The notes beneath the pieces are model-generated. The model made no database searches. It saw nothing but the letters and a program-made list of their open reading frames with translations, and was not told where the DNA came from. Below, piece by piece: positions 2,903 to 40,301 of a DNA stretch of 64,000 nucleotides. How positions within the stretch are numbered: the first letter of the stretch is position 1; each line of letters begins with the position of its first letter. Location: contig NZ_JAUASX010000007.1 of NCBI RefSeq assembly GCF_030345715.1, positions 62,001-126,000 on the forward strand, read 5' to 3'. The stretch is from Solimonas sp. SE-A11. GTDB taxonomy: Bacteria > Pseudomonadota > Gammaproteobacteria > Nevskiales > Nevskiaceae. The translations under genes were made by a program, and so were the position numbers.

Positions 2903-5782
2903 TCAGCGCAGTTCGTGCGTGCCGGTGTTGCCGTCCTGGTCGTACGCGCGGATGCGCGCACGGTCGCCGTCGCCCAGTTTCACGCTGACGCGGCAGGCCT
3001 TGCCCTGCGCATTGCAGGACGCGGCCAGGGTTTCGCTGGCGCCACCGGCGCGTATCACCTGCAGCTCCGCACGCTGGAACCAGCCATGCTGCGCCCAGGG
3101 GCGGAAGCTGCACTGGTCGCAGATGCGCGGATCGCCGTTGTCGGAGACGAAGGGGAAAGGGCTCCCTTCGTAGCTGCGCGGGTAGACGATGTCGGCCACG
3201 TCGAAGCCCACCGAGTCGGCACCGGCTGACGCATTGGCAAAGCCGATGCCGTCCCACACCGACACCGCGAAGGGCTCGGAGCAGAAGGCGTAGGGCACGG
3301 TAGCGAAGGACTGGCGCGACTTGCCCTCCACGCAGAAGCGGTAATTGCCGGGAGCCGTGCTGCCGAGGCGCGCGGGGAAGGCGGTGTAGGCTTCGTAGCT
3401 GGCGGTCCAGACCCACTCCTGCATGCCGGTGTAGGTGCGCAGTACGCCAGGCAGGCCCTCGGGGAACTCGACGCGCACCGGGATCTCGCCGCTCTGGTCG
3501 GCGTGCGGCAGCCACACGCCGGGCGCGGACTCGCGTTCCACGCGGACTCGCGGGTTGTCCACCGCGGTGGAGCCGCCACGCCACTGGAAGTGCGCGGCCT
3601 GGAAGCGCGTGATGCCTTGCGGCTGCTGCAGCGCCTCGGGCGTGCCCGAGTCATTCGGCAGGCCAGCGTTCCAAAGGTCATAGGCCGCGCCGCTGAGCGC
3701 GCCCACGGTGGTGGACACGATCTGCTGGCGCAGTTCGTCCACCGCCGCCAGTGGATCGAGCAGTTCGCCGGACAGCGCCGCGCCGCCCTGCATGCGGGCC
3801 GCCATGCGTACCAGGCGCGTGGCCATGTAGTCGGCGGTATGCGCGCCGTAGGACGTCAGGGCCTTGCGGTAGCTGTCGCGGTTCATGTACTCGCGGTAGC
3901 TCAGCGTGTAGCCGTTGTAGTCGCCGGCGTGGCCGATGCCAACGGCGAGCTTGTAGCCCGGGGCGTTGAGGTCCTGCACTTCCTCGCGCGTGAAGTTTCC
4001 CCAGATCTTCGTGATGTCGGTCGGCTCGCTGTTGGCGGCCAGGGCGTTCTGCGGCAGGTCCCAGCCGCGGGCATCGTTGTGCACCTGCGCACGCATGCGT
4101 GCGATGGCCTCGGGGGTGAAATTGTCTCCGGGGATGGTGGTGGCGTTCTCCGGATCATCCGGATCGAAATGGGTCTTCTGGATCGCGCAGGCCTGCGCGT
4201 AGGCCGGGTCGTCCTTGAACTCGGGGATCAGGCAGGCCCAGTCGAAGCCGGCGTAGATGTCACCGCGCGTGCGGTTGAGGCGCGACTCCAGATTGAGGAT
4301 CAGGTCGGACTGGGCCTCGCAGGCACAGGAGGCCAGCAGCACGTCACCCAGGCGGAAGGTCTGCAGCTTGAGCCGCAGGTTTTCCTCCACGACACCGATC
4401 GAGGGCGCATCGTAGTGGTCCGGCACCGGGATGTTCTCGGACTTGAGCAGGGCGTAGAGCTGGCCCGCACGGCCCAGGATCGGATCGGCGCCCGGAACCT
4501 GGATGCGCGTGCAGTCCGGCAGTCCGATCACCGGTACGCCGATGTCGCCGCCCACGGTGGGCTCGGTGCGGCAGTTGGACACGCTGGGATACGGATGTGA
4601 CAGCGGGCCCGGCACCCAGGCGGTGAGATGGTCCACCTCGAAGTCGCCGGACAGCGGCACGCGCGCCTGCGCCGTTCCGATCTGCTGCCAGGCCTTCTTG
4701 ATGTCGTCGGCCAGGAAGCGGGCGTTGCGCTCGGTCTGCACGTAGCCGGAATGCTGCCAGTCGCGGATCACGCCCTGTCCGGGCGGGCAGTCGTTGCGCT
4801 CCGGGACTTCAGCGTCACCCTTCCAGCGGCCGCAGACGCGAGCCTGGTCATCGAGCAGTTCCTCGGGGTCGCCGCTGTTCTCGGCGCTGCCGACATCACC
4901 CTGGCTGAACACCAGCGGCGCACCGATCTCGCGGTCGATGAAGCGTTCCAGCGGACCGAGGTAGTCGGCGCTGTGCAGGTCGTGCGGGTCCAGGCTCTCG
5001 GGGTGCTCGCCCCAGTTGACCCAGACCGCCAACGGCTTGGGCTGCGCCGGGTCGCTGAGGTCGTCGAAGCGCATCACCACCAGGCCGTGGTCGTTGAACT
5101 CGCGCGGGTAGCCGGCGGGCGTGCCGTCGTCGGCGGTGGCGGTGCGCACGACATTGCCCTTGTAGACGCGGTGGTGGATCTCGGTGGCGCCCATGCGCGC
5201 GGGCTTGAGATTGGCCGCGGCGGTCTCGATGGCACTGGCCATGGAGCGCGCCTGGTGCTCGAAGAAGCGGGCGTCGAACACATCCTGGAACACGAACAGG
5301 CCCACTGCCAGCGATGAGGCGTAGGCCGAGGTGTGGTCGTGGGTGACGTGGTACAGGATCTGGTCGTAGCCGATGCCGGAGTCGCCCTGGTCAAGCAACT
5401 GGCCGACGCGGCGCAGCAGCATGTCCTGCGCCAGGTAGTTGTCGGTCTTCAGCAGGGCGATGCGCTTGCCGTTGCTGCCCTCCACCACGATGGCGCGCGC
5501 CGTGGGGCGCGACTGCACGCCGTAGCTGGCGTGCTTGAGCTTGTGCGTCAGGAAGGGATCGAAGTCGCCGTTGATGATGCCGCCGAGCGTGTCGGTGGCG
5601 TACTCGCAGTACTGCCCGGCGCAGTAGCCGACGTCGGCCGTCATGTCGGCCACGCCAACGCCGGCCTTGATCTTCGAGACGCCAGCCGGCGGATTGCCGC
5701 CGGCCTCGCCGTCCACGGGATCGCTGCGGCCGGTGCAGGCGCACAGGGCCAGCGCCAGGGCCAGCAGCAGGGTGGCGCGCAT
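2903..5782 (-). CDS. Large ceramidase-like lipoprotein
   Basis: This 959-residue protein has a lipoprotein signal (LCAC, Cys16). Its N-terminal half resembles the neutral/alkaline ceramidase N-terminal family: an early GVGVADMT segment, a histidine-rich VTHDHTSAYA segment at the place of the family's THTHSGP motif, and later NWGEHPES and FSQGDVGS segments. Neutral ceramidases are zinc amidases that hydrolyse N-acyl sphingosines, but the substrate here is unknown. The C-terminal 300 residues (about 640-959) look beta-rich and are not assigned. The ATG at 5782 overlaps the TGA of the upstream paralogue, and an in-frame GTG lies one codon earlier, so the two genes are translationally coupled. 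At 959 residues it is longer than typical bacterial ceramidases (about 650). Confidence 0.72.
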   Translation of the reverse strand: MRATLLLALALALCACTGRSDPVDGEAGGNPPAGVSKIKAGVGVADMTADVGYCAGQYCEYATDTLGGIINGDFDPFLTHKLKHASYGVQSRPTARAIVVEGSNGKRIALLKTDNYLAQDMLLRRVGQLLDQGDSGIGYDQILYHVTHDHTSAYASSLAVGLFVFQDVFDARFFEHQARSMASAIETAAANLKPARMGATEIHHRVYKGNVVRTATADDGTPAGYPREFNDHGLVVMRFDDLSDPAQPKPLAVWVNWGEHPESLDPHDLHSADYLGPLERFIDREIGAPLVFSQGDVGSAENSGDPEELLDDQARVCGRWKGDAEVPERNDCPPGQGVIRDWQHSGYVQTERNARFLADDIKKAWQQIGTAQARVPLSGDFEVDHLTAWVPGPLSHPYPSVSNCRTEPTVGGDIGVPVIGLPDCTRIQVPGADPILGRAGQLYALLKSENIPVPDHYDAPSIGVVEENLRLKLQTFRLGDVLLASCACEAQSDLILNLESRLNRTRGDIYAGFDWACLIPEFKDDPAYAQACAIQKTHFDPDDPENATTIPGDNFTPEAIARMRAQVHNDARGWDLPQNALAANSEPTDITKIWGNFTREEVQDLNAPGYKLAVGIGHAGDYNGYTLSYREYMNRDSYRKALTSYGAHTADYMATRLVRMAARMQGGAALSGELLDPLAAVDELRQQIVSTTVGALSGAAYDLWNAGLPNDSGTPEALQQPQGITRFQAAHFQWRGGSTAVDNPRVRVERESAPGVWLPHADQSGEIPVRVEFPEGLPGVLRTYTGMQEWVWTASYEAYTAFPARLGSTAPGNYRFCVEGKSRQSFATVPYAFCSEPFAVSVWDGIGFANASAGADSVGFDVADIVYPRSYEGSPFPFVSDNGDPRICDQCSFRPWAQHGWFQRAELQVIRAGGASETLAASCNAQGKACRVSVKLGDGDRARIRAYDQDGNTGTHELR

Positions 5783-7596
5783 CACAGCGACTCGTCGTCG
5801 TTGAGCAGGCCGCAGATCGCCGGCGACAGGCTCAGCAGGCTGCAGAGGCTGGTGACCGGCAGCTTGGGGTCGATCAGCCCGCAGAAGGCCGCCGGGGCGC
5901 CGGCGTCCAAGCAGTTCTGCGCGAACTGCGTCTGCACGTACTCCAGCTGCAGGGCGATGTCGCTGATGATGCAGTCGCCGCTGCCCGGCGCAGTACAGGC
6001 GCGCAGGTTGGCGGGCAGGTACTCGATGGGGGACGCGTCGAACAGCGGCAGGTAGCCCTGCAGGCGCAGCAGCGGCGCCGTCAGCGGGCCCATCGACACG
6101 AATTCCTCGTAGCCGGTGAAGGGGATCAGGAAGCCGGTGTCGCCGGAGGCGTCGATATAGGAGAACTCTTCCTCGGGCAGGATGTAGCCGAAGGAATTCT
6201 GCGTGAGACCCAGCAGCATCACGCCGGAGCCGGGATTGGCGCCTTCAGCCAGGCCGCGGATGAACTGGCCAAAGGTGTTGGTGGCCTCGCCGGGGATGGT
6301 GGCCATTTCCAGTCCGCCGGCACCGCCCATGCTGATGCGCGTGACCAGGGTCTCTGCCGTCATCGGCACCTGGCCGATCTGGGTGGTGACGGTGCCGAGA
6401 ATCTCGTGCAGCACCGGGATGCTGGTGATCTCGCGCGGGGTGAAGTCGTAGTAGCGGTTGAAGGCGCCCAGCGGCGCGGCCACCGCGAACAGCGGGTTGG
6501 TGACCGGCAGGATGACGTTGGCGTTGCGCAGCGCCAGCTGCGGCGCCAGCGCGCGGCGCGGCTGGCGCAGGGCGAAGGCGGCAAGATCATGGCCGCGGCA
6601 GCGCACGCTCTCGTAGGGGTCCGGCTCGGTGAAGGCGCACTGGCCACCGCGCGGCGAGGCATCGGCGATCGGGCCGTTGTAGTAGAGGCCGACGCCGCCG
6701 AGCCGCTCCAGCTCCTTCATGGCGCCGTATACGTAGTCGGCATGCGGGACGCGCGGGTCCTCGTCGATGCTGGTGGGGTGCGCGGCGTACTGCAGGATCT
6801 GCAGGATCGGCCGGCGACTGCGCGAATCCTCGAAGCGCAGCAGGCTGACCGCCGGATCGGCGTCGTCGGCCGGGTTCACCTGCGGACGCCGGTAGTTGTT
6901 GAAGTCGGAGTTGATGCCCTGGCCGAGGCTGGCGTTGGCGCGGGCGCGGCCGGCGATGGCGGCGCGCGTGGCCTGGGCAGCGCCGGCGTAGAGCACATCG
7001 GTGATCCACTGCTGGGGAACGCCGCCCCAGAGGCCCTGCAGGTCGGCGCCGGCATGGGTGTGGGTCTGGCCGAAGACGACGTGATCGGCCGCGATGCACC
7101 ACTCCAGGGCACAGCTGGCCTCGACCACGGCGGCGCGCAGGCCGTCCTGGATCAGGTTGCCGGCCCCGATGGCGTCAAGCGTGACGAAGGCGACGCGGGT
7201 CTCGCCCTGCTCCACCACGGCCAGGCGCAGCCAGGTGTGCTCGTCCTCGCGGTAGCGGTCGCTGTGGTGCACCCGCTCCTGGGCCGGCTGGGTCAGGCTG
7301 GGGCCGAGCTGGGCGAAGGGGTTGGGCAGGTTCTGGATCGGGTTGATGCCGTAGCCGCCCAGGTTGAACTGCTGCAGCTTGGTGCCCAGGAACAGGCGCG
7401 ATTCCTCGACGCCGTCGATCTGCTCCTGGGTGGGGCTGACGATGGCCTTGGCCGCCCCCACGCACCAGTCGCCCGCCTCGCAGGGCGTACCCGCCCCCCC
7501 GGGGCCGGCGGCGCCGTCTCCCTCCACCGGCACGCTGTTGTGGCAGCCAGCGAGCATCGCCAGCGACAGGGTGGCCCCTATCCGGAACATCCGCAT
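5782..7596 (-). CDS. Ceramidase-like lipoprotein
   Basis: This 604-residue protein is the first gene of the coupled lipoprotein pair. The ATG at 7596 is chosen because GGGGGAG lies seven bases upstream; a TTG at 7602 is in frame. The lipoprotein signal ends in LAGC (Cys18 from this start). The family signature is clearer here than in its neighbour: GQTHTHAGADLQG for the zinc-binding THTHSGP segment, plus a later QYAAHPTS segment and YYNGPIADASPRGG. These support membership in the neutral ceramidase N-terminal superfamily. Enzymatic activity and substrate are unproven. An envelope-anchored amidase acting on lipids from outside is a reasonable inference. Confidence 0.72.
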   Translation of the reverse strand: MRMFRIGATLSLAMLAGCHNSVPVEGDGAAGPGGAGTPCEAGDWCVGAAKAIVSPTQEQIDGVEESRLFLGTKLQQFNLGGYGINPIQNLPNPFAQLGPSLTQPAQERVHHSDRYREDEHTWLRLAVVEQGETRVAFVTLDAIGAGNLIQDGLRAAVVEASCALEWCIAADHVVFGQTHTHAGADLQGLWGGVPQQWITDVLYAGAAQATRAAIAGRARANASLGQGINSDFNNYRRPQVNPADDADPAVSLLRFEDSRSRRPILQILQYAAHPTSIDEDPRVPHADYVYGAMKELERLGGVGLYYNGPIADASPRGGQCAFTEPDPYESVRCRGHDLAAFALRQPRRALAPQLALRNANVILPVTNPLFAVAAPLGAFNRYYDFTPREITSIPVLHEILGTVTTQIGQVPMTAETLVTRISMGGAGGLEMATIPGEATNTFGQFIRGLAEGANPGSGVMLLGLTQNSFGYILPEEEFSYIDASGDTGFLIPFTGYEEFVSMGPLTAPLLRLQGYLPLFDASPIEYLPANLRACTAPGSGDCIISDIALQLEYVQTQFAQNCLDAGAPAAFCGLIDPKLPVTSLCSLLSLSPAICGLLNDDESL

Positions 7597-30107: not shown

Positions 30108-32090
30108 CTAGAAATATTCGCCCTTGAACACGTTCGCGAACACCACCTGCTCCAGCGTCGGCTTGCCGCCGTCCTTGCGGCCCTTGGCCGAGGCCGAGGA
30201 GGGGAACAGGCGGAAGCCGCGGTTGAGCATGCTGTCGTTGAGCTTGGGCCACAGCGCGTAGGACACGGCGGCGACGGTGCCCAGCGGCGTGGCGATGGAC
30301 TTCGGGCGGCGCAGCACCGACTCCAGCACGGTGTCGCCGGCCTTCTCCGGCGACCAGGCCGGCACGTAGTCGTAGAGCTTGGTCGGCGCGATCATCGGCG
30401 TGCGCACCAGCGGCATGTAGATCGCGGTGACCTCGATGCCGCGGTGCTTCACCTCGGCCGACAGGCAGCGGCTGAAGGCATCGAGCGCGGACTTGCTGGC
30501 GACGTAGGCGGAGAAGCGCGCGGCATTGGTCAGCACGCCAATGGAGCTGATGTTGACGATGTGGCCGTCGCGGCGCTTCGCCATCCCCGGCAGGAAGTTG
30601 AGGATCATGCGGATGGCGCCGAAGTAGTTCAGCTGCATCGTACGCTCGAAGTCGTGGAAGCGGTCCAGCGACTCGAACACGGCACGACGGATGGAGCGGC
30701 CGGCGTTGTTGATCAGGATGTCGACGTGGCCGAAGTCCTTCAGGATCTCGGCGCAGCAATTGTCGATGGCCTGCATGTCGTTGAGGTCGCAGGGGTACAC
30801 ATGCGCCTCGCCTCCGGCCATCTGGATGATCTTCTGCGTCTCTTCCAGTTTCTCGCGCGTACGCGCCACCAGGATCACCTTGGCGCCGGCGGCGGCGAAC
30901 TTCTTGGCCGAGATGAAACCAATGCCCGAGGACGCGCCGGTGATGACCACGACCTTGCCGGACAGCTTGCGCTCGGCGCCCTTGGGAATCTTGGCGTAGA
31001 TGTCGAGGAACTGTTCCCAATAGGCCCAGAGCTTGTCGGCGTAATCCTTGATGTCCGGGCAGTTGATGCCCGAGCCCTTGAGGGCGCGGCGCGCGTTCTT
31101 GTCGTCGAACACCGCCGGGTTGGTGACGTAGCCCAGCACCGACACCGGCACGCCGATGGCCTTGGAGAGGGTCTTGCTGACGTTGCCGGGGATGCTCTCG
31201 CCGAGGCGGTTGGCCAGGTCGCGCGCCGCCTTGGGTATCGCCGGCAGCTCGAACTTGGCGGCGAACTGCGGGCCGTGCGCGGCTTCCATCAGTGTCTGCA
31301 GCAGGCTGCCGACCGTGGGCGAATCCGACTGGATCAGGCAGAAGACCTGGCCGTCGAGACCATCCTTGTGCGCGATGTGGTCCATGGCCTTGGCCACGTA
31401 ATCCACCGGCGCCAGCGGCACGCGGCCGCCTTCGATGCCCAGCAGCGGCAGCCACTTGGGCACCGCGTACGACAGCTTCTGGATGGTCTTGAAGAAGTAG
31501 TAGGGGCCGTCGATCTTGTCCATCTCGCCCGTCTCGGAGTGGCCGACCACGGCGCCCGGACGATAGATGCGGAAGGGCACCTTCGACTCCTCGCGCACGA
31601 TCTGTTCCGACTGGAACTTGGTGCGGAAGTAGGGGTGCGCCACGCGCTGGCCCTCGTCGAACATGTCCTCGGTGAAACGGCCGTTGAAGTCGCCGCCGGC
31701 CACCGCCACGCTGGAGGCGTGATGCAGCTTCACGTTGCCGCCCAGGTCGTTGGCGAAGGCCACGAGATTGCGCGTGCCCTCGTTGTTGATGCGGTCGCCG
31801 GTGGCGTCGTCCATGCCCATGTCGTAGACGGCAGCCAGGTGGAAGACATGGTCGATCTTGCCCTGCAGCTTTTTGAAGTCGGCCGCGGACACCAAGCCCG
31901 GCGTGGTGATGTCGCCATACACGGCGTGCAGGCGCGTGCCGGCCTCACCGTAGCGCTCCTGCAGTGCCGCGAACTTGTCCTTGGACGACTCGCGTACCAG
32001 GACATGCACCTGCGCCTCGGGCCGGGCCAGCAGCTGTTCCAGCAGGAACTTGCCGATGAAACCTGTCGCCCCCGTCACGAAATAGTTCAC
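30108..32090 (-). CDS. Two-domain fatty acyl-CoA reductase (wax-ester type)
   Basis: A 660-residue fusion of two short-chain dehydrogenase domains, as in the Marinobacter fatty acyl-CoA reductase that reduces acyl-CoA to fatty alcohol. N-terminal extended SDR (1-350): TGATGFIGKF nucleotide site, HVFHLAAVYDM and YRPGAVVGHSETGEMDKIDGPYYF regions. C-terminal classical SDR (about 370-600): VITGASSGIG, NNAGRSIRR and the YVASK catalytic pair. The GTG at 32090 gives the MNYFVTG start and has GAGGAGA upstream. The product would feed wax esters or fatty alcohols, but no wax ester synthase is in the window. Confidence 0.88.
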   Translation of the reverse strand: MNYFVTGATGFIGKFLLEQLLARPEAQVHVLVRESSKDKFAALQERYGEAGTRLHAVYGDITTPGLVSAADFKKLQGKIDHVFHLAAVYDMGMDDATGDRINNEGTRNLVAFANDLGGNVKLHHASSVAVAGGDFNGRFTEDMFDEGQRVAHPYFRTKFQSEQIVREESKVPFRIYRPGAVVGHSETGEMDKIDGPYYFFKTIQKLSYAVPKWLPLLGIEGGRVPLAPVDYVAKAMDHIAHKDGLDGQVFCLIQSDSPTVGSLLQTLMEAAHGPQFAAKFELPAIPKAARDLANRLGESIPGNVSKTLSKAIGVPVSVLGYVTNPAVFDDKNARRALKGSGINCPDIKDYADKLWAYWEQFLDIYAKIPKGAERKLSGKVVVITGASSGIGFISAKKFAAAGAKVILVARTREKLEETQKIIQMAGGEAHVYPCDLNDMQAIDNCCAEILKDFGHVDILINNAGRSIRRAVFESLDRFHDFERTMQLNYFGAIRMILNFLPGMAKRRDGHIVNISSIGVLTNAARFSAYVASKSALDAFSRCLSAEVKHRGIEVTAIYMPLVRTPMIAPTKLYDYVPAWSPEKAGDTVLESVLRRPKSIATPLGTVAAVSYALWPKLNDSMLNRGFRLFPSSASAKGRKDGGKPTLEQVVFANVFKGEYF

Positions 32091-32222
32091 GGCCAATCTC
32101 CTCAAGAAAGTGATTTCGGGATCATTCTGGGAGATCGATATTACCGGGGACATGGCCGCAGAGACACAAACGCCGGCGGGGTCTCCGCCGGCGCTGGAAA
32201 ATCGGACACGCGTTTGCAGCGA

Positions 32223-32531
32223 TCACTGTGACAGTGTGGCTTCCTCGATCCAGCCGCTGTACTGCTGGTGCTGCGTATACCACCAGCCACCATCGCGATT
32301 AGTCTGCCGCACCTGCAGCTTGAGGCTGGCGCCCGCCGGCACCGGTCCCTCGATGGGGGACTGATGCTGCGGCCGTGCACGGAGCACCGTGGCCTGCTTG
32401 GTCTTCGCCGGGCCCGGCATCAGGGCCGGTGGCGGTGCCACCACGGGCGGAGCCACGATCATCACCGGCAATTGCGCCTGCGCTGAAAAGCCCAGCCCCG
32501 CCAGCACGGCAGCCACCAGAATCCTGTTCAC
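32223..32531 (-). CDS. Small exported SH3b protein
   Basis: A 102-residue protein: signal peptide (1-19, ending AQAQ), proline-rich stretch (VVAPPPALMPGPA), then a bacterial SH3-like domain at about 46-102 with ATVLRARPQHQSP, GWWYTQHQQYSGWIEE. SH3b domains often bind peptidoglycan or choline-like ligands in envelope proteins. It follows the barrel-SH3b gene on the same strand and its domain resembles that protein's C-terminus, so the two are likely related in origin. Confidence 0.72.
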   Translation of the reverse strand: MNRILVAAVLAGLGFSAQAQLPVMIVAPPVVAPPPALMPGPAKTKQATVLRARPQHQSPIEGPVPAGASLKLQVRQTNRDGGWWYTQHQQYSGWIEEATLSQ

Positions 32532-32587: not shown

Positions 32588-33568
32588 TTACTGCGGCGCC
32601 AGGGCGCTGTCGTTCACCCAACCGGTGGTGTTGCCGGCATAGACATACCACCACACGCCGAGCGCATTGGGTACGCGCTGCATGAGCTGCACCTCCGAGC
32701 CGGCAGGCAGGCTGCCGTCTACCGGAGCGCCAGCACGCGGCTGACGCAGCAGCGCGGTCGGCTGGGCCGTGCGGCGGACGCCGATGATCGGCATGACGGG
32801 CTTGGACGCGGACGCGGCAGCGGCCGGAGCCACCGGGGCCGCAGCCAGTACCGGCTGCGGGGCCGGGGCCGGCGTAGCCACCGGTTCTGGCGGCATCGCC
32901 GCAGGAGCCGGGGTGTAGGCCGGTGCGGGGGTGTAGGCCGGCGCAGGCGCCGGTGCGGGAGCCGGCGGCGGTGTATAGCTGCTGCGGCTGCTGGAATTGG
33001 AGGAAGAGGAAGAGCCTCCCGAGGGCAATTCGAACACCAGGCCCAGACTGATCACGGTAACGTCGCTCTCGTTATCGACGGTCACCGGATAACCATTGAA
33101 ATCCTTCACGCCCATGTAGCTTTCGAGGTCTAGCCGCAGGCCGAAATGGCGGGTGATCTTCCAGTCGCCGCCGATGCCCCAAGTAAAGCCGCTGCTGGAC
33201 AGCTCATCGCTGCCGAAACCCGCCTCTTTTCCCTCGGAGTCACCCTTGTAGTAGCCCCCCTTGATCCAGACACCGGAGCCGCTTGGGCTCAGGCGGCCGT
33301 AATAGCCAGCCGAGGCACGTACCCCGGAGAATCCAATGCTGACACCGGGAAGGTCGGAAACGTCATGCTCGCCGAAGTCCGTGTAGGCGACCTCGAACAT
33401 TAGCGGCAGCGATTCCGGGCGGAACCCCGCGAAAGCGGTGAAGCCGGCCGCGTCATCGACATTCTCGTATTCGTACTGCGTCATGCTGGCGGCGCCGCCC
33501 GCATAGACGCCCGCGTGTGCCGCTCCGCTCAGCAGGGCAGCGAGCCCCACCCATTTCGCCCCTTTCAT
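32588..33568 (-). CDS. Outer-membrane beta-barrel fused to SH3b domain
   Basis: A 326-residue protein with signal peptide (1-19, ending AHAG), an eight-stranded-looking barrel at 20-180 of the OmpA/OmpW-like kind (YAGGAASMTQYEYE, FEVAYTDFGEHD, GIGGDWKITRHFGLRLDLE, VISLGLVFEL), a serine run, a long Pro/Ala linker (about 190-262, YTPAPAYTPAP repeats), and an SH3b domain at about 265-326 (LRQPRAGAPVDG, GVWWYVYAGNTTGW). The linker would span the periplasm, tethering the barrel to peptidoglycan or another envelope partner. The ligand is unknown. Confidence 0.75.
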   Translation of the reverse strand: MKGAKWVGLAALLSGAAHAGVYAGGAASMTQYEYENVDDAAGFTAFAGFRPESLPLMFEVAYTDFGEHDVSDLPGVSIGFSGVRASAGYYGRLSPSGSGVWIKGGYYKGDSEGKEAGFGSDELSSSGFTWGIGGDWKITRHFGLRLDLESYMGVKDFNGYPVTVDNESDVTVISLGLVFELPSGGSSSSSNSSSRSSYTPPPAPAPAPAPAYTPAPAYTPAPAAMPPEPVATPAPAPQPVLAAAPVAPAAAASASKPVMPIIGVRRTAQPTALLRQPRAGAPVDGSLPAGSEVQLMQRVPNALGVWWYVYAGNTTGWVNDSALAPQ

Positions 33569-33694: not shown

Positions 33695-34534
33695 CTAGTA
33701 GTCCCCTTCATGGTGCTTGGCCGCCTCGCGCAGCTCGGCCCGCTGCTGCAGGCGCTGGGCGCGGTCCTTGTCGGAACGCCAGATCACGTCCGGGAACAGC
33801 AACACGCGCAGCAGGCCCACCAGCATGAACAGGTAGCTGAAGCTGAACAGGATGCCGCAAAACATCGACACCCACTCGAAGCTCGGCGCCACGTACTTGA
33901 TGCCCCACCAGGACATCACGTCCACCATCGAGGCGGCCAGGCCCACCGGGAAGATCCACTGGTAGGACTGCAGCTGGTTGAACTGCATCGAGAACGGGAT
34001 GCCGATGATGAAAAAGCAGGTGGTGAAGCCGAACAGGTGCGCATGGGTGAAGGCGATCAGCTTGCCCAGCGACATCTGCTCGAAGTAAGCCTGCGCCGTG
34101 CCGTGCAGCCGCAGCTGGTACCAGATCTCTGACGCTCCGAAGCAGAAGGCGATGCCGAACATCACCACTGCCATGGCGATGCCGCGCTTGGCCGCCGGCG
34201 GCAGCTCGCGCAGGTTCAGCTCCACGCTGTGCGAGTCGAAGGGGATGAACCACCACACCGCCGCCAGGATCAGGAAGAACACCGCGATCAGCGCCAGCGG
34301 GCCGCCCGCGGTGATCCACAGCGGCTTCTCCGGCGGCAGTTCGACCACCGCCGCACTCTCCACCGGCTGGTCGCTGAAGAAGTCGAAGTCGTCGCCGCCA
34401 GGCTGGGCCTGCTGCGTCTCGGCCGCCGGCACCTGCGCGGCATCCGCGTCGGCCGCAGAAACCGCCAGGCTGCGCGCCAGCAGGAACACGGCGACGAAGA
34501 AGGCCACCAGGCCGAATTCGAACAGGCGTATCAC
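33695..34534 (-). CDS. Six-helix membrane protein of cytochrome operon
   Basis: A 279-residue inner-membrane protein at the 3' end of the cytochrome operon. The GTG at 34534 is preceded by GGGAGAGGGGA, itself part of a REP doublet. Helix 1 is a signal-anchor-like segment, then an acidic linker (DDFDFFSDQPVES), then five helices. IAFTHAHLFGFTT in helix 4 has paired histidines placed as in membrane haem proteins, and VMSWWGIKYV follows in helix 5. No family name is known to me. A membrane electron-transfer partner of the cytochromes is an inference. Confidence 0.72.
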   Translation of the reverse strand: MIRLFEFGLVAFFVAVFLLARSLAVSAADADAAQVPAAETQQAQPGGDDFDFFSDQPVESAAVVELPPEKPLWITAGGPLALIAVFFLILAAVWWFIPFDSHSVELNLRELPPAAKRGIAMAVVMFGIAFCFGASEIWYQLRLHGTAQAYFEQMSLGKLIAFTHAHLFGFTTCFFIIGIPFSMQFNQLQSYQWIFPVGLAASMVDVMSWWGIKYVAPSFEWVSMFCGILFSFSYLFMLVGLLRVLLFPDVIWRSDKDRAQRLQQRAELREAAKHHEGDY

Positions 34535-34661
34535 TCCCCTCTCCCGCCATGCGGGAGAGGGGCTGGGGGAGAGGGTTTCTGTAGAACTCTCCCGACGTCG
34601 CCATCCTCTAGCTTTCACAGACACCCTCTCCCCTGCCCCTCTCCCGCAAGCGGGCGAGGGG
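34535..34661 (-). repeat. Inverted REP doublet, family CCCTC-hairpin, copy 3
   Basis: Hairpins at 34535-34575 and 34621-34661 facing each other. The left arm supplies the ribosome site for the six-helix protein gene; the right arm begins three bases from the stop of the cytochrome c gene. It lies within the cytochrome operon. Confidence 0.7.
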
Positions 34662-34663
34662 TA

Positions 34664-35491
34664 TTAAGCATTCTTGAGCCTCACGTAGAGCAGCGTGCCC
34701 GCCTTCTTCACCGCCGCGGTGATAGCAGCATCGAGGTCACTGCCGGTGGCTGCCGGCAGCTGGTCCACGGCGATGCCGTTGAACTTGCCATAGACCTTGC
34801 TCTGCGCCGCGGCCGGCACCTGGGTGCTGCTCATGGGCTTGACCTGGGTCACCTTGAGCTGGCGGTCGGTCACCATCAGCAGGAAGAACAGCTTGCCCTT
34901 GAACTCGGCGGGGAAGATCAGCGCCGTGCCGGCTGGGCGTTTGTCCTGCAGCGGCACGTAGATGGTGTTCTCGTCGGCCTTGCCCAGGACGGCGCCCATT
35001 GTCTTGGCACGGGCGATATCGGCGTCGGTCAGGATCGCGTCGCGCGGCAGGTACTCGCGCACGCCGGGGAATGCCGCCTGCACCTCGCGCGGGATCAGGC
35101 TGGCGGTGTCCAGCCAGTCACCCTTGCTGGCGGGCGTGGAGCTCTTGCTGCCGGGATTGGCGCGGGCCTGCGCCTCGGCACCGTTGGCCGCGCCGTCGCC
35201 GTCGGCATCCTTGCTGGCGATCTTGGCGAAGGACCCGGCACTCATGCCGGCGTCCTTGAACTCCTGTCCGTAGGCATTCAGCGGCGTGCCGCCGCCATCC
35301 TTGTGGCAGGCATTGCAGGAGGGCGCGTAGCCGTACTCGGCCTTGTACATCCGGGCGAAGGCGGGCTCGGCGCTTGCGGTGCAGCTCCACAGGAGCAGCG
35401 CCGCCGTGAGGCGTGAGGCGTGAGGCGTGAGGCGTTGAAAAGCCGTGCGCCGCCGCGGCGCTGCTTCTGTCTTCTTGCTGTTACGCCTCAC
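34664..35491 (-). CDS. Monoheme cytochrome c with FMN_bind-like C-terminal domain
   Basis: A 275-residue exported protein. The signal-like stretch is at 25-42 behind a long basic N-region, one heme-binding CNACH at 59-63, an EF-hand-like loop DADGDGAANGAE at 95-106, and a C-terminal domain at about 140-275. That last part follows the FMN_bind fold order: GTALIFPAEFKGKLFFLLMV strand pair, then DQLPAAT (243-249), aligned to the flavinylation signature DxxSGAT of NqrC/RnfG, where a threonine carries FMN via ApbE. The Ser-Gly pair is replaced by Pro-Ala. Heme and flavin in one chain implies periplasmic electron transfer. The GTG start lies in a GTGAGGC repeat region; the N-terminus is therefore uncertain. 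Confidence 0.7.
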   Translation of the reverse strand: MRRNSKKTEAAPRRRTAFQRLTPHASRLTAALLLWSCTASAEPAFARMYKAEYGYAPSCNACHKDGGGTPLNAYGQEFKDAGMSAGSFAKIASKDADGDGAANGAEAQARANPGSKSSTPASKGDWLDTASLIPREVQAAFPGVREYLPRDAILTDADIARAKTMGAVLGKADENTIYVPLQDKRPAGTALIFPAEFKGKLFFLLMVTDRQLKVTQVKPMSSTQVPAAAQSKVYGKFNGIAVDQLPAATGSDLDAAITAAVKKAGTLLYVRLKNA

Positions 35492-35506
35492 GCCTCACCC
35501 CTCACG
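35405..35506. repeat. Heptamer repeat CGTGAGG and inverse copies
   Basis: Four perfect tandem CGTGAGG heptamers (35405-35432), then an inverse CGCCTCA-type run (35483-35506). The first set codes part of the N-terminus of the cytochrome c (LTPHASRLT) and the second holds its GTG start region. The element seems to have been absorbed into the coding sequence. Confidence 0.6.
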
Positions 35507-35511
35507 TTTTT

Positions 35512-37233
35512 CTAGAAGTCGAACAGCCCCGGAACCGTGTCGCGCATGCGCTCCATCAGCTTCGGATCCTTCTTCAGCGCATCCTCCATCGCGGCGCGCT
35601 GCGGCGAGTCCGCAGGCGGCATCAGGGTATGCGCCTTGTCGCTGCCGCGGTAGCGCTCCCAGTCGAGCACGTCGCGGATCTTGGGCGTGGCCTTGACCTG
35701 GGCCAGCACCTCGGCCTCGTTGCGCCCGCCCATGAAGTCCAGGCGCTTGGCCGGGTTACCGCGGTGGCAGCTGAAACAGTATTCCTCGAAGGGATGCAGC
35801 GGCGAGCCGGCGGACAGTTCCAGCGGCGGACCGCCGCTGGCCTGGGGCGGCGACATCTCAGCCGTATCCAGGCAGCAGTAGGCCGGCAGGGTCTTCTCGC
35901 CCAGGGCGCCGAGCAGGGCCTGCATGAGCTTCACCCGCGAGACGGGCGCGGCACGGAACAGCATCGGGTCGAGCCGGTCCACCGCCGCCTCCAACCGCTC
36001 GGGGCCGATGCCCCCGGCCTGCTCCAGCCGCGCGCGGTCGCCGTCGCTGAACAGCGCGGCCAGGCCGTAGACGCCATCGATGTCACCAGCGGTCAGCTTG
36101 CGCTTGGGTGGGCGCGGTGTCAGCGGGTCCAATACCGCCGGCAGCTTCGGCAGCTGGTCGAAGGCCACCAGGTCCTCGTTGTTGCGGGCACCCTCGCCCG
36201 GCTGTGGTGCCGGCGTGAACAGTGCGCGGATGCGGTTGCGCAGGCCGCGCTGCCCGGCCAGCGGATCGCGGTTGCGCAGGTCCGACTCCGGCACGGCGAT
36301 GCCCTCCGGCGGCCAGGACGCGGCCTGCATCTGCCGCAGCCGCGCGGCATCGACGGACTGGGCGTCGAAATTGCCGGGGTCGGAGAGATAGCGCAGTGCC
36401 AGCTTCAGCATCAGGCGGCGGCAATCCGCTCCCTCCGCGCCGCAGGCATCGATCCACAGCTGCTGCGTCACCGCAACGAAGGTGCCGGTGTCGGTCAACT
36501 CGTCGAAACGCTCCGGCGAAGCCAGCGGCTGCTCCAGCGGCATGCCGAGGTAGGGCTCGTTGCCACGCGCGGCGGCGATCATCGCGGCGATCTCGGGCTG
36601 CCCGTTGGTCTCGGCCCAGGGGCGCTGCGGGAAGATCGGCGTGCCGCCCTGATGGCAAGTAGTGCAGACCGCGCGGCGCGCGTAGACGATGCGACGCGCA
36701 CCGGTGGCGGAGTAGTCCTGCACCAGCTGGAACTCGAAGCGGCCAGCGGCCTCGTTGTAGCTCAGCACCTCGATCTCGTTGGCATCTTCCACGAAGCCGA
36801 GGAACAACTGGCCACGCGGCGCCAGGCCCAGCGAGGCCGGCGTGCCCGGCGCCTGGAAATCCGCCGCCACCAGCACGCGTGGATGATGAAAGTCCGCCTG
36901 CGCCTTCAACAGCGAACGCCCTTGCGGGATCATCAGCGTCACCGGCATGCGGCCTTCCGGATCCTGCTTCTTCAGCATCTCCACCAGCTTCTCGAAGGGA
37001 TACGGCAGGCCGTCGTTCTGCGCCACCAGGTGATCGAACAGCGAGCGCGTGCCGGCCGGCGGCAGATCCTCGGTGGCGATCAGCCTCGCGCTCAGGCGCG
37101 GCGCGGCATGCACCGGCTCCTGCGTGCTGCGCTGGACGATATCCGGCCCGCGCGGCCCCGACTCGGGCCGCAGCCAGAGCCAGGCGGCAATGCCCAGGCC
37201 GGCAAGCAACAGCAGGACGAAGAGGCGCTTCAT
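35512..37233 (-). CDS. Membrane-anchored diheme c-type cytochrome
   Basis: A 573-residue protein with an N-terminal transmembrane anchor (2-20), then a periplasmic domain carrying heme sites CTTCH at 190-194 and CFSCH at 486-490. The MPP in HTLMPPADSP (near 538) may give an axial methionine for the second heme. The 300-residue spacing of the hemes and the long N-terminal domain are unlike simple cytochromes and resemble diheme peroxidase/MauG-like architectures only loosely. The ATG overlaps the stop of the upstream membrane gene (ATGA), so these are co-translated. Confidence 0.78.
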   Translation of the reverse strand: MKRLFVLLLLAGLGIAAWLWLRPESGPRGPDIVQRSTQEPVHAAPRLSARLIATEDLPPAGTRSLFDHLVAQNDGLPYPFEKLVEMLKKQDPEGRMPVTLMIPQGRSLLKAQADFHHPRVLVAADFQAPGTPASLGLAPRGQLFLGFVEDANEIEVLSYNEAAGRFEFQLVQDYSATGARRIVYARRAVCTTCHQGGTPIFPQRPWAETNGQPEIAAMIAAARGNEPYLGMPLEQPLASPERFDELTDTGTFVAVTQQLWIDACGAEGADCRRLMLKLALRYLSDPGNFDAQSVDAARLRQMQAASWPPEGIAVPESDLRNRDPLAGQRGLRNRIRALFTPAPQPGEGARNNEDLVAFDQLPKLPAVLDPLTPRPPKRKLTAGDIDGVYGLAALFSDGDRARLEQAGGIGPERLEAAVDRLDPMLFRAAPVSRVKLMQALLGALGEKTLPAYCCLDTAEMSPPQASGGPPLELSAGSPLHPFEEYCFSCHRGNPAKRLDFMGGRNEAEVLAQVKATPKIRDVLDWERYRGSDKAHTLMPPADSPQRAAMEDALKKDPKLMERMRDTVPGLFDF

Positions 37234-37877
37234 GCCGGCGCGGCTCCGCGCTCGGCCCAGCCCGCGGCGACGGCAAAGACCAGGTAGCCGCCCAGCGCCA
37301 TCGCGGCCACGCCGCGGGCGTCATTCATCAGCCACGGCCCCAGTGTATGACCGGCCTGCACCAGCGCCAGCACCGCGCCGAGCGTCCAGGCACGCCGCGC
37401 ATGCTGCGGCAGCGCGCGCACGTAGAGCAGGATGGCGCCGGCCAGCAGGCCCAGTTCCAGCGCCAGCTCGGGCAGCGGGTAATTCCAGAGGCCCAGGCCC
37501 TGCTTGTGCTGGTCCCCATACAGCGGTAGGTCCGGGGCGTGGACCAGCAGGTCGAGGAACCAGTGGGAGGCCACGGCCGCCGCCACCGCCAGCGCCGCCG
37601 CGCGGCCGTCGCCACGGCGCCAGGCGAGATATGCCAGCCCCAGCGCGGTCGCCCAGATCGCGGTGGCCAGCAGGCTGTGGGTGTAGGGCATGTAGTAGAG
37701 TTCCACCGGGAAGGCCGCGGTGAAGCCCGGCACCACCCGTGCCTTCTCGATGCCCGCCATCACCAGCAGCGCCCAGCCGATGTCCACCGCCTGCACGGCG
37801 AGGAACATCGCCCACAGCGGCACCCTCGGCTGCGAGGCCTTGAGCGCGAAGGCGGCGCTGTAGTGGCCGACGAACAT
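37230..37877 (-). CDS. DUF457/YdjM-like membrane protein
   Basis: A 215-residue protein with about five hydrophobic helices. MFVGHYSAAFALKA at the N-terminus, MPYTHSLLATA (near 63) and SHWFLDLLVHAPDLPLY (near 104) resemble the LexA-binding/metal-dependent hydrolase-like DUF457 membrane family, whose histidine and aspartate residues suggest metal binding. Function unknown. It is sandwiched between two cytochrome genes, four-base overlap downstream and six bases upstream, so it is an integral part of the operon. Confidence 0.72.
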   Translation of the reverse strand: MFVGHYSAAFALKASQPRVPLWAMFLAVQAVDIGWALLVMAGIEKARVVPGFTAAFPVELYYMPYTHSLLATAIWATALGLAYLAWRRGDGRAAALAVAAAVASHWFLDLLVHAPDLPLYGDQHKQGLGLWNYPLPELALELGLLAGAILLYVRALPQHARRAWTLGAVLALVQAGHTLGPWLMNDARGVAAMALGGYLVFAVAAGWAERGAAPA

Positions 37878-37883
37878 GGCCGG

Positions 37884-40301
37884 CTACATCAGCTTGAGGA
37901 ATTCGCGCAGCGCCAGCTTGTCGTCCTTCGACAGCGACACGCCGAACTGGTGACCCTTGTTCTCCACCAGGTCATCGCACTTCATGAAAAGCGGCGAATG
38001 CGGATCGGACGAGGTGAAGGCCGCGACCGGCGTGCCCTTCTTCACCGGCAGGCGGATCGGCCCCTGCTGGTCTTCGCGCGGCGCCAGCTTGATGTCGCGG
38101 TCGGTGACGCTGATCTTCTGCGGGCGGTGCGGCGTGACCTTGGGATTGTCCGAGGTCAGCAGCTCGTCGAAGGCCATCTCGAACTGCTTCACGCGGCCGC
38201 GCACGGTGTAGTCGATGCTGCCGTCCTTCAGGTGCGTCAGCTCGCCGACCGCGTTGTTGTGCAGGAAGGGCGCGGTGGCCCAGGCCGACAGCAGCGAGAA
38301 GTTGCGCAGGTAGCCGCTGCCGCCCTCGATCTTCTTCTCGCCCAGCACGCGGCCGCCCAGGCCCGGCACCATGCGGTTGAGCACCTGCGGCACCGAGCCC
38401 GGCGACGGCCGCGCGCGATAGTCCTCGGAGGCAAACTGCTCCCAGATGTGGCCGGCGCTGTGATTGTCGTGCATGGCGCGGCACATGTTGGTGCCGATGA
38501 TGTTGAACGGCACCGGCTCGTCGTTGGCCAGCCAGTCCTGCCCGAGGAAGTCCTTGCCGACGAACTGGCGCGGCCGCAGCTTGCCGCTCTGCGGATCCTT
38601 GGCCAGGTACTTGGCCTGGAATGCCGGCGAGTCGCGCTCGGCCTGGGTAAACTCGTGCTGCCAGTAGTCCTCGGCGCCAAAGACATGGCCCTCGTAGTAG
38701 CGCTCCAGCGCGGCCTTGTCGGCGCGCACGTTGTCCGGCGCGAACTTGGAGCTGTGGCAGCCGGCGCACTCGCGCGCAAAGACCTTGCGCCCCTGCGGCA
38801 CCTTGGCCAGGTCGATGAAGGCCGAGCCCGGCGTGCCGTCCACGTCCCTGGCCTTCAGCAGGTAGGTGGGGCCGCCGGTCATCAGGAAGGAGGCCAGCTC
38901 CGGCATCTTGGCGTCGGCATAGTTCCAGGCCTCGCAGTCCTTGGCGCACTGCGCGATGTCGAAGGGCTGCTGGTGCGACTTGTCGCCGAAGAACGTGCCC
39001 GGCTTGGGGAACTTGGGTGTCCAGCATTCCTCGGTGCACATGCCGATGTTGACGTACACGCGGATCAGCGCGAGATGTTCTCCGACGCTGTCCTCACCGC
39101 CCTTAAGCACGTGGCGCGTGCGCGCCTTGGTGATCTTGCCGGTGACGGGGTCCTTCATGCTCTCCTCGAACAGACGCTTGTTCGAGAAGTCCATGATGTT
39201 GTTCTGCGTGCCCGGGTTGTGCTGGAAGTCGGTGGCCACCAGCGAAGTGTCGATGGTGCCCACGCGATGGCCTACGCCCAGCACCTGGCGCGACAGCGAA
39301 TCCTCCGGCGTACCCATCACGTACTGCATCGGCTGCATGGTGTACTGGTTGCCGATGGTGGCGTGGATGTTCTCCCACTTCGGCTGGTTGGGGTCCTTCG
39401 GCGGGTTGGTGGGGTCGAAAGCCACGTGGCACTGCACGCAGGGGCCACCCAGCACGTAGCGCAGGTTCTTCTGCAGCTCGTCCTTGCGGTAGGGCGAGGT
39501 GGCCGGGTCGAACGTCACCTTGCCGGAGGCATCCTTGGTCACGTCCTGGTGGTACTTGCGGTAGCCCAGCACGCCGGAGCTGTGCGCGTCCGGGCAGCGG
39601 TCGTACCAGTTCGTGCTGGCATCGCCTTCCGTGCAGTCCGGGTCGTTGATCATTCCCCACTTGGTGAAGCGGTGCTTGCGCTCGCGCGTGTCGAGCCAGG
39701 GATACCAGACGTTGTCCTTGCCCACCGTGCGCGTCGTGTGCAGGTACTCCTCGTCCTGGTTGCCGAAGCTGCCCTTGAACCAGACATCGCGGCCGCGGCG
39801 GACCTGCTCACGCGCCAGTCGGGCGGCGGCGGGGTTGGTCTTGGCCAGGTCCTTGAACAGCTGGTTGACGTAGCGGCAGGACTCGGCGTCGTAGCCGGTG
39901 GGCTGCGGCTGGTCGCAGGGCGGCGGCGGCGCCTGCGGGATCGGCACGATGTCCCAGGTGATGGGCCCCTGGAACGGCGGGTAGCGCGGCGGCGAGCTGC
40001 CGTCGCGCCAGACCTTGCGGGCGGCCAGGGTGTCGTAGAAGTGCGCGTCGTACCAGGCGCGGTCCTTCTGCACCTTGGGCGAGCCATGCCAGGTGCCGGT
40101 CGTAAGGTTCAGGCGGACCAGGTCGTCCAGCGAGATCGAGCGATAGGTGGCGGTGTACGGCGCATCGGGCACCGGGTATAGGCCGGCGCCGCCGGGCACG
40201 GCGTAGGGCGCCGGGGCGGCAGCCGCGGGCTGCGCGGCCGGTGTCGCGGCCAGCGCCGCCGGTGAAGACAGCAACAGCGCCCACAGCAGCCGCTTGACCA
40301 T
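37884..40301 (-). CDS. Large exported diheme c-type cytochrome
   Basis: First gene of the operon, 805 residues. Signal peptide (1-19), Ala/Pro-rich start, heme sites CVQCH at 288-292 and CAGCH at 512-516. The region after the second heme (TNMCRAMHDNHSAGHIWEQF; GSGYLRNFSLLSAWATAPFLHNN) recalls the diheme cytochrome c peroxidase/RoxA superfamily, where such residues lie near the active heme. Four extra cysteine pairs (CPD, MCTEEC, QCAKDC) may be disulfides. Size and spacing are near those of rubber oxygenase-like proteins, but I cannot confirm kinship. Substrate unknown. Confidence 0.75.
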   Translation of the reverse strand: MVKRLLWALLLSSPAALAATPAAQPAAAAPAPYAVPGGAGLYPVPDAPYTATYRSISLDDLVRLNLTTGTWHGSPKVQKDRAWYDAHFYDTLAARKVWRDGSSPPRYPPFQGPITWDIVPIPQAPPPPCDQPQPTGYDAESCRYVNQLFKDLAKTNPAAARLAREQVRRGRDVWFKGSFGNQDEEYLHTTRTVGKDNVWYPWLDTRERKHRFTKWGMINDPDCTEGDASTNWYDRCPDAHSSGVLGYRKYHQDVTKDASGKVTFDPATSPYRKDELQKNLRYVLGGPCVQCHVAFDPTNPPKDPNQPKWENIHATIGNQYTMQPMQYVMGTPEDSLSRQVLGVGHRVGTIDTSLVATDFQHNPGTQNNIMDFSNKRLFEESMKDPVTGKITKARTRHVLKGGEDSVGEHLALIRVYVNIGMCTEECWTPKFPKPGTFFGDKSHQQPFDIAQCAKDCEAWNYADAKMPELASFLMTGGPTYLLKARDVDGTPGSAFIDLAKVPQGRKVFARECAGCHSSKFAPDNVRADKAALERYYEGHVFGAEDYWQHEFTQAERDSPAFQAKYLAKDPQSGKLRPRQFVGKDFLGQDWLANDEPVPFNIIGTNMCRAMHDNHSAGHIWEQFASEDYRARPSPGSVPQVLNRMVPGLGGRVLGEKKIEGGSGYLRNFSLLSAWATAPFLHNNAVGELTHLKDGSIDYTVRGRVKQFEMAFDELLTSDNPKVTPHRPQKISVTDRDIKLAPREDQQGPIRLPVKKGTPVAAFTSSDPHSPLFMKCDDLVENKGHQFGVSLSKDDKLALREFLKLM

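Follow-up and report, generated by a model that had tools for sequence, protein, structure and literature searches.

Does a tight run of minus-strand genes for c-type cytochromes and membrane proteins in Solimonas sp. SE-A11 make up one system, and what might that system do? The run lies in a 64,000-nucleotide stretch of contig NZ_JAUASX010000007.1 (positions 62,001 to 126,000), called the window below, and its genes are designated A to E. The nearest named isolate is Solimonas fluminis, whose protein A is 94% identical, and one Solimonas metagenome-assembled genome (MAG) reaches 97%. The original prediction described a five-gene operon of c-type cytochromes and unassigned membrane proteins, and its account of the layout is largely borne out. 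Coordinates of the open reading frames (ORFs) confirm five minus-strand genes at this place; three of the products (A with two, C with two, D with one) carry five CxxCH motifs, their N-termini appearing signal- or anchor-like by eye; A and B are separated by 6 bp, B and C overlap in an ATGA at 37230-37233, and repeats occupy the C-D and D-E junctions. The features are these:

37884-40301, minus strand: gene A, 805-residue diheme c protein of the RoxA/MauG-like superfamily, with CVQCH and CAGCH and a signal-like N-terminus
37230-37877, minus strand: gene B, 215-residue membrane protein, weakly YdjM-like, a passenger between A and C
35512-37233, minus strand: gene C, 573-residue diheme c protein with CTTCH and CFSCH and an N-terminal anchor-like helix
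34664-35491, minus strand: gene D, 275-residue monoheme protein with CNACH (His63) and an EF-hand-like DADGDGAANGAE
33695-34534, minus strand: gene E (revised, GTG start at 34534), 279-residue membrane protein; the ORF 33695-34624 has 309 codons
35405-35506, strand not assigned: heptamer (CTCACGC/GTGAGGC) inverted repeat array at the C-D junction, encoding the N-terminus of D
34550-34648, strand not assigned: repeat with GCGGGAGAGGGG arms at the D-E junction, directly upstream of the start of E

Four of these genes, A, C, D and E, travel together across genomes, and we put at roughly one half the probability that their products form one self-contained periplasmic redox system around A as a RoxA-like oxygenase or peroxidase. 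A protein-based scan of named genomes, which reaches close relatives only, gave 47 distinct loci with A at 58-97% identity. A, C, D and E share order and strand in 42 of them (E of locus L007 having been added from tblastn); these 42 are labelled Nevskiales, Moraxellaceae and relatives, Burkholderiales (Limnobacter), Leptospiraceae, Salinisphaerales and Oleiphilus, and many are MAGs. Three of the five exceptions (L015, L017, L018) stop at a contig end. The other two, L036 without E and L037 without C, D and E, correspond by contig coordinates to genomes G042 and G046 of our set of relatives, in which the missing genes sit on other contigs: E is apart from A-C-D in G042 and A is apart from C-D-E in G046, so that all four genes are kept in both, and misassembly of these bins is possible.

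Among 61 related genomes, each of the four genes is found in 23, and the 23 are identical for all four. Three genera contain both states (with and without the cassette: 2 and 3 in g3, 1 and 2 in g4, 2 and 1 in g6), which implies that the four genes come and go together. This identical profile and the order and strand shared by 42 of the 47 loci place the neighbourhood of the four genes above chance. Co-occurrence in other genomes, which the original prediction had named as its test, thus holds for A, C, D and E and fails for B. The operon is real, with these four as its conserved core; B, found in 4 of the 47 loci, lies outside that core. Within the operon, no internal promoter or terminator stood out above chance.

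A sample of 398 genomes across the phylum, covering A, C and E, found C in two genomes (the Solimonas genome itself and G138), E in those two and in one weak relative, and A in both of them and in three distant relatives. No plasmid record matched A over 80% of its length. Distance matrices of the four proteins correlate pairwise at r 0.765-0.858 over 41 loci, with a maximum of 0.347 in 1000 permutations, a correlation that common descent of the host species would also produce. In a quick tree of the joined proteins (42 rows), the rows cluster largely by order, and Leptospiraceae, which belong to another phylum, fall among the Moraxellaceae-type rows. This placement suggests transfer of the cassette, although the tree comes from a short search with a long-branch warning and bins may hold wrong contigs. 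One relative, G019 (L071/L088), has a full cassette and a partial second copy of A (53% identity, residues 410-715, one CxxCH). No description of the four-gene set was found among the matches listed from open-licence literature; the cassette is a divergent RoxA/MauG-like protein with a fixed partner set that is absent from those matches.

By sequence comparison, A is a divergent RoxA/MauG-type diheme protein. Its heme sites CVQCH (His292) and CAGCH (His516), its MauG-type motif APFLHNNAVG (His681) and its C-terminal NKGHQFG (His784) each keep their His in 48/48 rows; also kept are ten further Cys, His611 and His614 (48/48) and His618 (46/48). We aligned 26 A proteins with 12 RoxB/C-type proteins taken from the relatives and with three distant A-like proteins, 41 rows in all. 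Both heme motifs and His784 align in every row, and the MauG His681 aligns in 26/26 A, 12/12 Rox and one of the three distant proteins, the other two having Leu. The motif stands in the context LLSAWATAPFLHNNAVG in window A and LYGVWATAPYFHNGSVP in a Rox example; PFLHNNAVG of A and P[YF]xHNG[SA]VP of Rox agree in the His, the first Asn and the spacing, with Asn in A for Gly and Gly for the last Pro. A resembles the rubber oxygenases RoxA and RoxB, and RoxC (PF21419, NF050034, NF051462), in having two CxxCH motifs in the same order, a MauG-motif His between heme 2 and the C-terminus, and a C-terminal GHxF His. The RoxA-like model PF21419 matches 17/26 A proteins at E <= 0.01, and profile comparison of A with Rox gives E = 0.00029 over the heme 1 region.

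A departs from Rox in reading HNNAVG where Rox has HNGSVP, in its ten extra conserved Cys, in an HxxHxxxH segment and in scores below the Rox cut-offs. Its sequence is also divergent in the region where active RoxA has F317 and W302. It is, moreover, encoded with C, D and E; partners of this kind are not mentioned for Rox in the excerpts of PMC10837239 that were available. The same excerpts give H195 as the ligand of heme 1 in RoxA, H394 and H641 as those of heme 2, and H517 as the His of the MauG motif. By analogy, A may combine an open heme 1 with a bis-His heme 2. Because of this RoxA/MauG-type diheme layout, A is probably catalytic rather than a mere electron carrier. The excerpts also describe RoxC as the largest Rox-related group, with 243 of 458 sequences, and as lacking a known function (PMC10837239). 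The cassette adds a more distant RoxA-like branch with three fixed partners, whose function can be tested by deletion and reconstitution.

Genomes with the cassette tend to have RoxB/C-type genes as well: of the 61 relatives, 18 have both, 5 the cassette only, 6 Rox only and 32 neither. With kinship ignored, Fisher's test gives p 1.8e-6, or 4e-4 without one family that lacks both. Two of the 24 Rox-positive genomes (G019, G034) have weak or partial matches; without them p is 6e-5, or 0.003 leaving out family f6, kinship again being ignored. The Solimonas sp. SE-A11 genome itself has four RoxB-model matches (C1:670397, C20:29227, C5:2714, C12:270708), two of them above cut-off, and a relative of the same genus, G003, has 18.

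The candidate electron carriers are C and D. The heme sites of C are CTTCH (His194) and CFSCH (His490); Met501 is present in 45/46 rows and Met538 in 46/46, which is compatible with a Met-ligated second heme. D combines its CNACH (His63) with an EF-hand-like motif DxDxDGxxNxxE, DADGDGAANGAE in window D, whose five positions are kept in 45/45 rows, and it likely binds calcium. No other His or Met of D is conserved in at least 60% of rows. Among domain models, Temptin_C matches window D below threshold, and TSP3_bac matches 11 of 26 D proteins, window D not among them. The GEGP diheme model NF041762 is listed for 26/26 D proteins at E <= 0.001; membership in that family was rejected, since window D scores 51 bits against a cut-off of 300 and has one CxxCH for the two hemes of the model. 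The FMN_bind likeness first suggested for D has to be dropped: Pfam FMN_bind matched neither window D at E <= 1 nor the 26 D proteins at E <= 0.01. Window C and window E matched no Pfam family at its cut-off.

E is predicted to have an N-terminal signal-like helix and five membrane helices (mean predicted local distance difference test score, pLDDT, of the model 81.9). His194, His196, Asp235, Trp239 and Trp240, in ORF numbering, are present in 42/42 rows. From positively charged residues read by eye, we infer a cytoplasmic C-terminus and a periplasmic HxH site. The first 30 codons of the ORF (34535-34624) coincide with the repeat-bearing junction, in which sister species L006 has in-frame stops, and DNA comparison with two sister species makes GTG 34534 the most likely start. 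E contains no CxxCH, and so has no heme c domain in its own chain. Its HxH half is nevertheless homologous to a membrane family in which a heme c domain is fused (hhalign probability 97%, E = 1.1e-10). The members of that family (P0001, c131-c136) share HxHLF, D and SW with E in matching helices and carry a heme c domain of their own ahead of the HxH helix, whereas E lacks one and is encoded beside heme proteins. Leaving aside the Solimonas genome itself, where the hit is E, the fused family occurs in 62 of 388 phylum genomes; of six neighbourhoods read, two include a nearby triheme protein. Carrying a SHIHLF motif, the fused family (L086 7464-8282; L131-L136) has 57 of its 62 host genomes in a single family, f45. 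With E comes a further membrane protein family, marked by a conserved HxH and unnamed in Pfam and NCBIfam scans.

Apart from its CxxCH, D conserves no His or Met, and E could therefore donate a histidine to the heme of D when the two proteins dock. The pair would then be a two-chain counterpart of the single-chain fused family. The idea that the heme domain of D is the detached domain of the fused relatives was considered separately and found no support (E = 0.015, probability 2.9%).

Hints about substrate come from outside the cassette. Distant A-like proteins, on rhizobial plasmids and at L083, L084 and L085, match the A profile at E 1e-59 to 1e-85. Those at L083-L085 and L143 keep both heme sites and the C-terminal His, with Leu for the MauG His in L083, L085 and L143; the plasmid matches listed are 30-32% identical to A. 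The distant A-like genes have no C, D or E match nearby. We read six such loci whole, L083-L085 from the phylum sample and L141-L143 on rhizobial plasmids (from 21 plasmid records). In profile searches with positive controls, a GMC oxidoreductase gene lies immediately downstream of the A-like gene in all six, and a patatin-like gene is near it in four (L084, L141, L142, L143), hinting at lipid-like substrates. The available portion of PMC4496055 describes the fatty-acid dioxygenases PA2077/PA2078 (FadCcp, oleate-diol synthase) as RoxA-like; they are RoxA-like diheme proteins, as A is, with long-chain fatty acids as their substrates, and they form a two-gene operon as against the four-gene cassette. 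This likeness is by description.

On the plasmids of L141 and L143, genes for an NADH:flavin oxidoreductase, diheme c proteins, a GMC oxidoreductase and a patatin-like protein are clustered, the diheme c proteins of L143 being two RoxA-like and one A-like. In L142, the GMC and patatin-like parts share one reading frame.

From these results, a working scheme for the periplasmic redox system can be drawn. A would be the enzyme proper, of the RoxA/MauG diheme type. The analogy with RoxA would have heme 1 (His292) bind O2 or peroxide and heme 2 (His516, His784) feed it electrons. C, anchored and with two hemes, and D, with one, would shuttle electrons between A and the cytoplasmic membrane, while E would link through its HxH site to a membrane redox pool, presumably of quinone. 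Electrons would thus run from E, D and C to A, which may use them, or its own two-electron reaction, to activate O2 or peroxide for reaction with a hydrophobic molecule, perhaps lipid- or isoprenoid-like. In its most specific form, the scheme makes A-C-D-E a new kind of membrane-coupled, electron-fed RoxA-type complex, an oxygenase or peroxidase acting on hydrophobic molecules and supplied by the quinone pool by way of the HxH site of E; so much detail taken together is tentative, and we think it unlikely to be right in every part. The original prediction had proposed a periplasmic electron-transfer chain belonging to no standard oxidase, nitrate or sulfur system. A periplasmic redox system of no standard type fits the data; a plain electron-transfer chain is less likely than a catalytic A.

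Several results weigh against a system centered on a RoxA-like A. The protein falls below the curated cut-offs of PF21419 (20.3 versus 26.7 bits), the RoxB model NF050034 (15.3 versus 900) and the di-heme cytochrome c peroxidase model NF040606 (43.1 versus 150). The hhalign probability for A against Rox is 40%, and plain profile searches of one set with the other did no better than E 0.013. The structure model of A is poor (pLDDT 65.6), and its fold search gave no match at E <= 0.001, as was the case for E against PDB and viral libraries. Another conserved His of A could be the distal ligand of heme 1. RoxA, a dioxygenase, is not known to need electron partners; carriers dedicated to A would therefore sit better with a peroxidase or with a monooxygenase-like reaction. 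As to substrate, no GMC or patatin gene was found in 2173 ORFs of the 47 cassette loci, in which positive controls were found, nor at L088, the locus of the partial A copy in G019, and the lipid hint may accordingly not carry over to the cassette. Flanking genes gave no clue either: among the 105 of 149 ORFs around 16 loci that were scanned, no family occurred more than three times. In a sequence search of solved structures, the best match of A was to a cytochrome c6 (E 0.0039), C and D had E > 0.7, and E had no match.

In the best surviving alternative, A acts as a diheme cytochrome c peroxidase: it clears H2O2 or lipid hydroperoxides from the periplasm with electrons supplied by C, D and E, without oxygenating any carbon substrate. 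Such an enzyme needs dedicated electron donors, and NF040606 is the best-scoring NCBIfam model of A, at a score far under its cut-off. Like A, bacterial diheme cytochrome c peroxidases and MauG have two c hemes and an enzyme-like motif. We know of no classical bacterial peroxidase with three dedicated partners that include a membrane protein. The alternative is helped by the grouping of RoxA-like fatty-acid enzymes with diheme peroxidases in the portion of PMC4496055 available, and weakened by the 35-40 kDa given there for the classical bacterial enzymes, about half the size of A. On balance, we judge this explanation improbable, though it deserves to be taken seriously.

Next comes a pure electron-transfer or respiratory module in which A is a conduit, with electrons passing from an outside donor through A and C/D to E and the quinone pool, or in reverse. 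Five c hemes, a membrane protein with heme-c-fused homologues, and the chance that A is closed at both hemes all suit it. The MauG-motif His, however, is present in 48/48 A rows where the distant A-like proteins L083, L085 and L143 have Leu, as expected if this His matters for catalysis in A, and we rate a mere conduit as rather unlikely.

More doubtful is a MauG-like A that oxidises side chains of a partner such as D, C or a secreted protein, which would make the cassette a protein maturation system. The retained APFLHNN, the company of the same three proteins and the ten conserved non-heme Cys would be in keeping with such a role, but Rox proteins share the MauG-type motif without being maturation enzymes. 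Accidental neighbourhood of the five genes, for which B as a passenger and the variation of the flanks between lineages might be cited, does not hold for A, C, D and E, given their identical profile and fixed order, and is very improbable indeed.

We return to B and to the junctions of the operon. Besides being rare among the 47 loci, B is missing from G003 (locus L051), one of four genomes of the genus Solimonas; it was rejected as a member of the system and is a passenger. The suggested resemblance of B to DUF457 was not found, as there is no DUF457 match and a single sub-threshold match, to YdjM (16.5 versus 29 bits).

Inverted repeats I3/I4 and I15 mark the C-D and D-E junctions. Sister species L002 and L006 have a short C-D junction, and their D starts with VKRLLPLLL, a signal-like N-terminus; in the window strain, the heptamer inverted repeat replaces that start and encodes the N-terminus of D in frame. 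The window strain thus has two repeats inside one operon, and the same junctions in the two sister species are without them. A 22-bp palindrome, CCTCTCCCNNNNGCGGGAGAGG, related to the D-E repeat, is found at 22 places in the genome; the GCGGGAGAGGGG arms at D-E deviate slightly from its pattern and are not among the 22.

Two flanking genes recur. A gene H for a short-chain dehydrogenase/reductase (SDR) lies downstream in 15 of the 47 loci (12 labelled Nevskiales, three MAGs labelled Gammaproteobacteria or Lysobacteraceae), and a HIT gene lies upstream in 15. Both are confined to part of the range, and both were rejected as core members. Solimonas and a few relatives have a pair of genes downstream of E. 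In the window, the first (32588-33568) encodes a protein resembling an outer-membrane beta-barrel, with a Pro/Ala linker and an end that is GW/SH3-like below threshold, and the next (32223-32531) a small SH3-like protein. The SDR gene of the window, at 30108-32153, encodes a 681-residue two-domain protein (NAD_binding_4 and adh_short, NF005539), the domain layout of which resembles that of fatty acyl-CoA reductases. Farther off, at 2903-5785, a 960-residue protein matches the N-terminal domain of neutral ceramidase at 37.6 bits, against a Pfam cut-off of 32.1.

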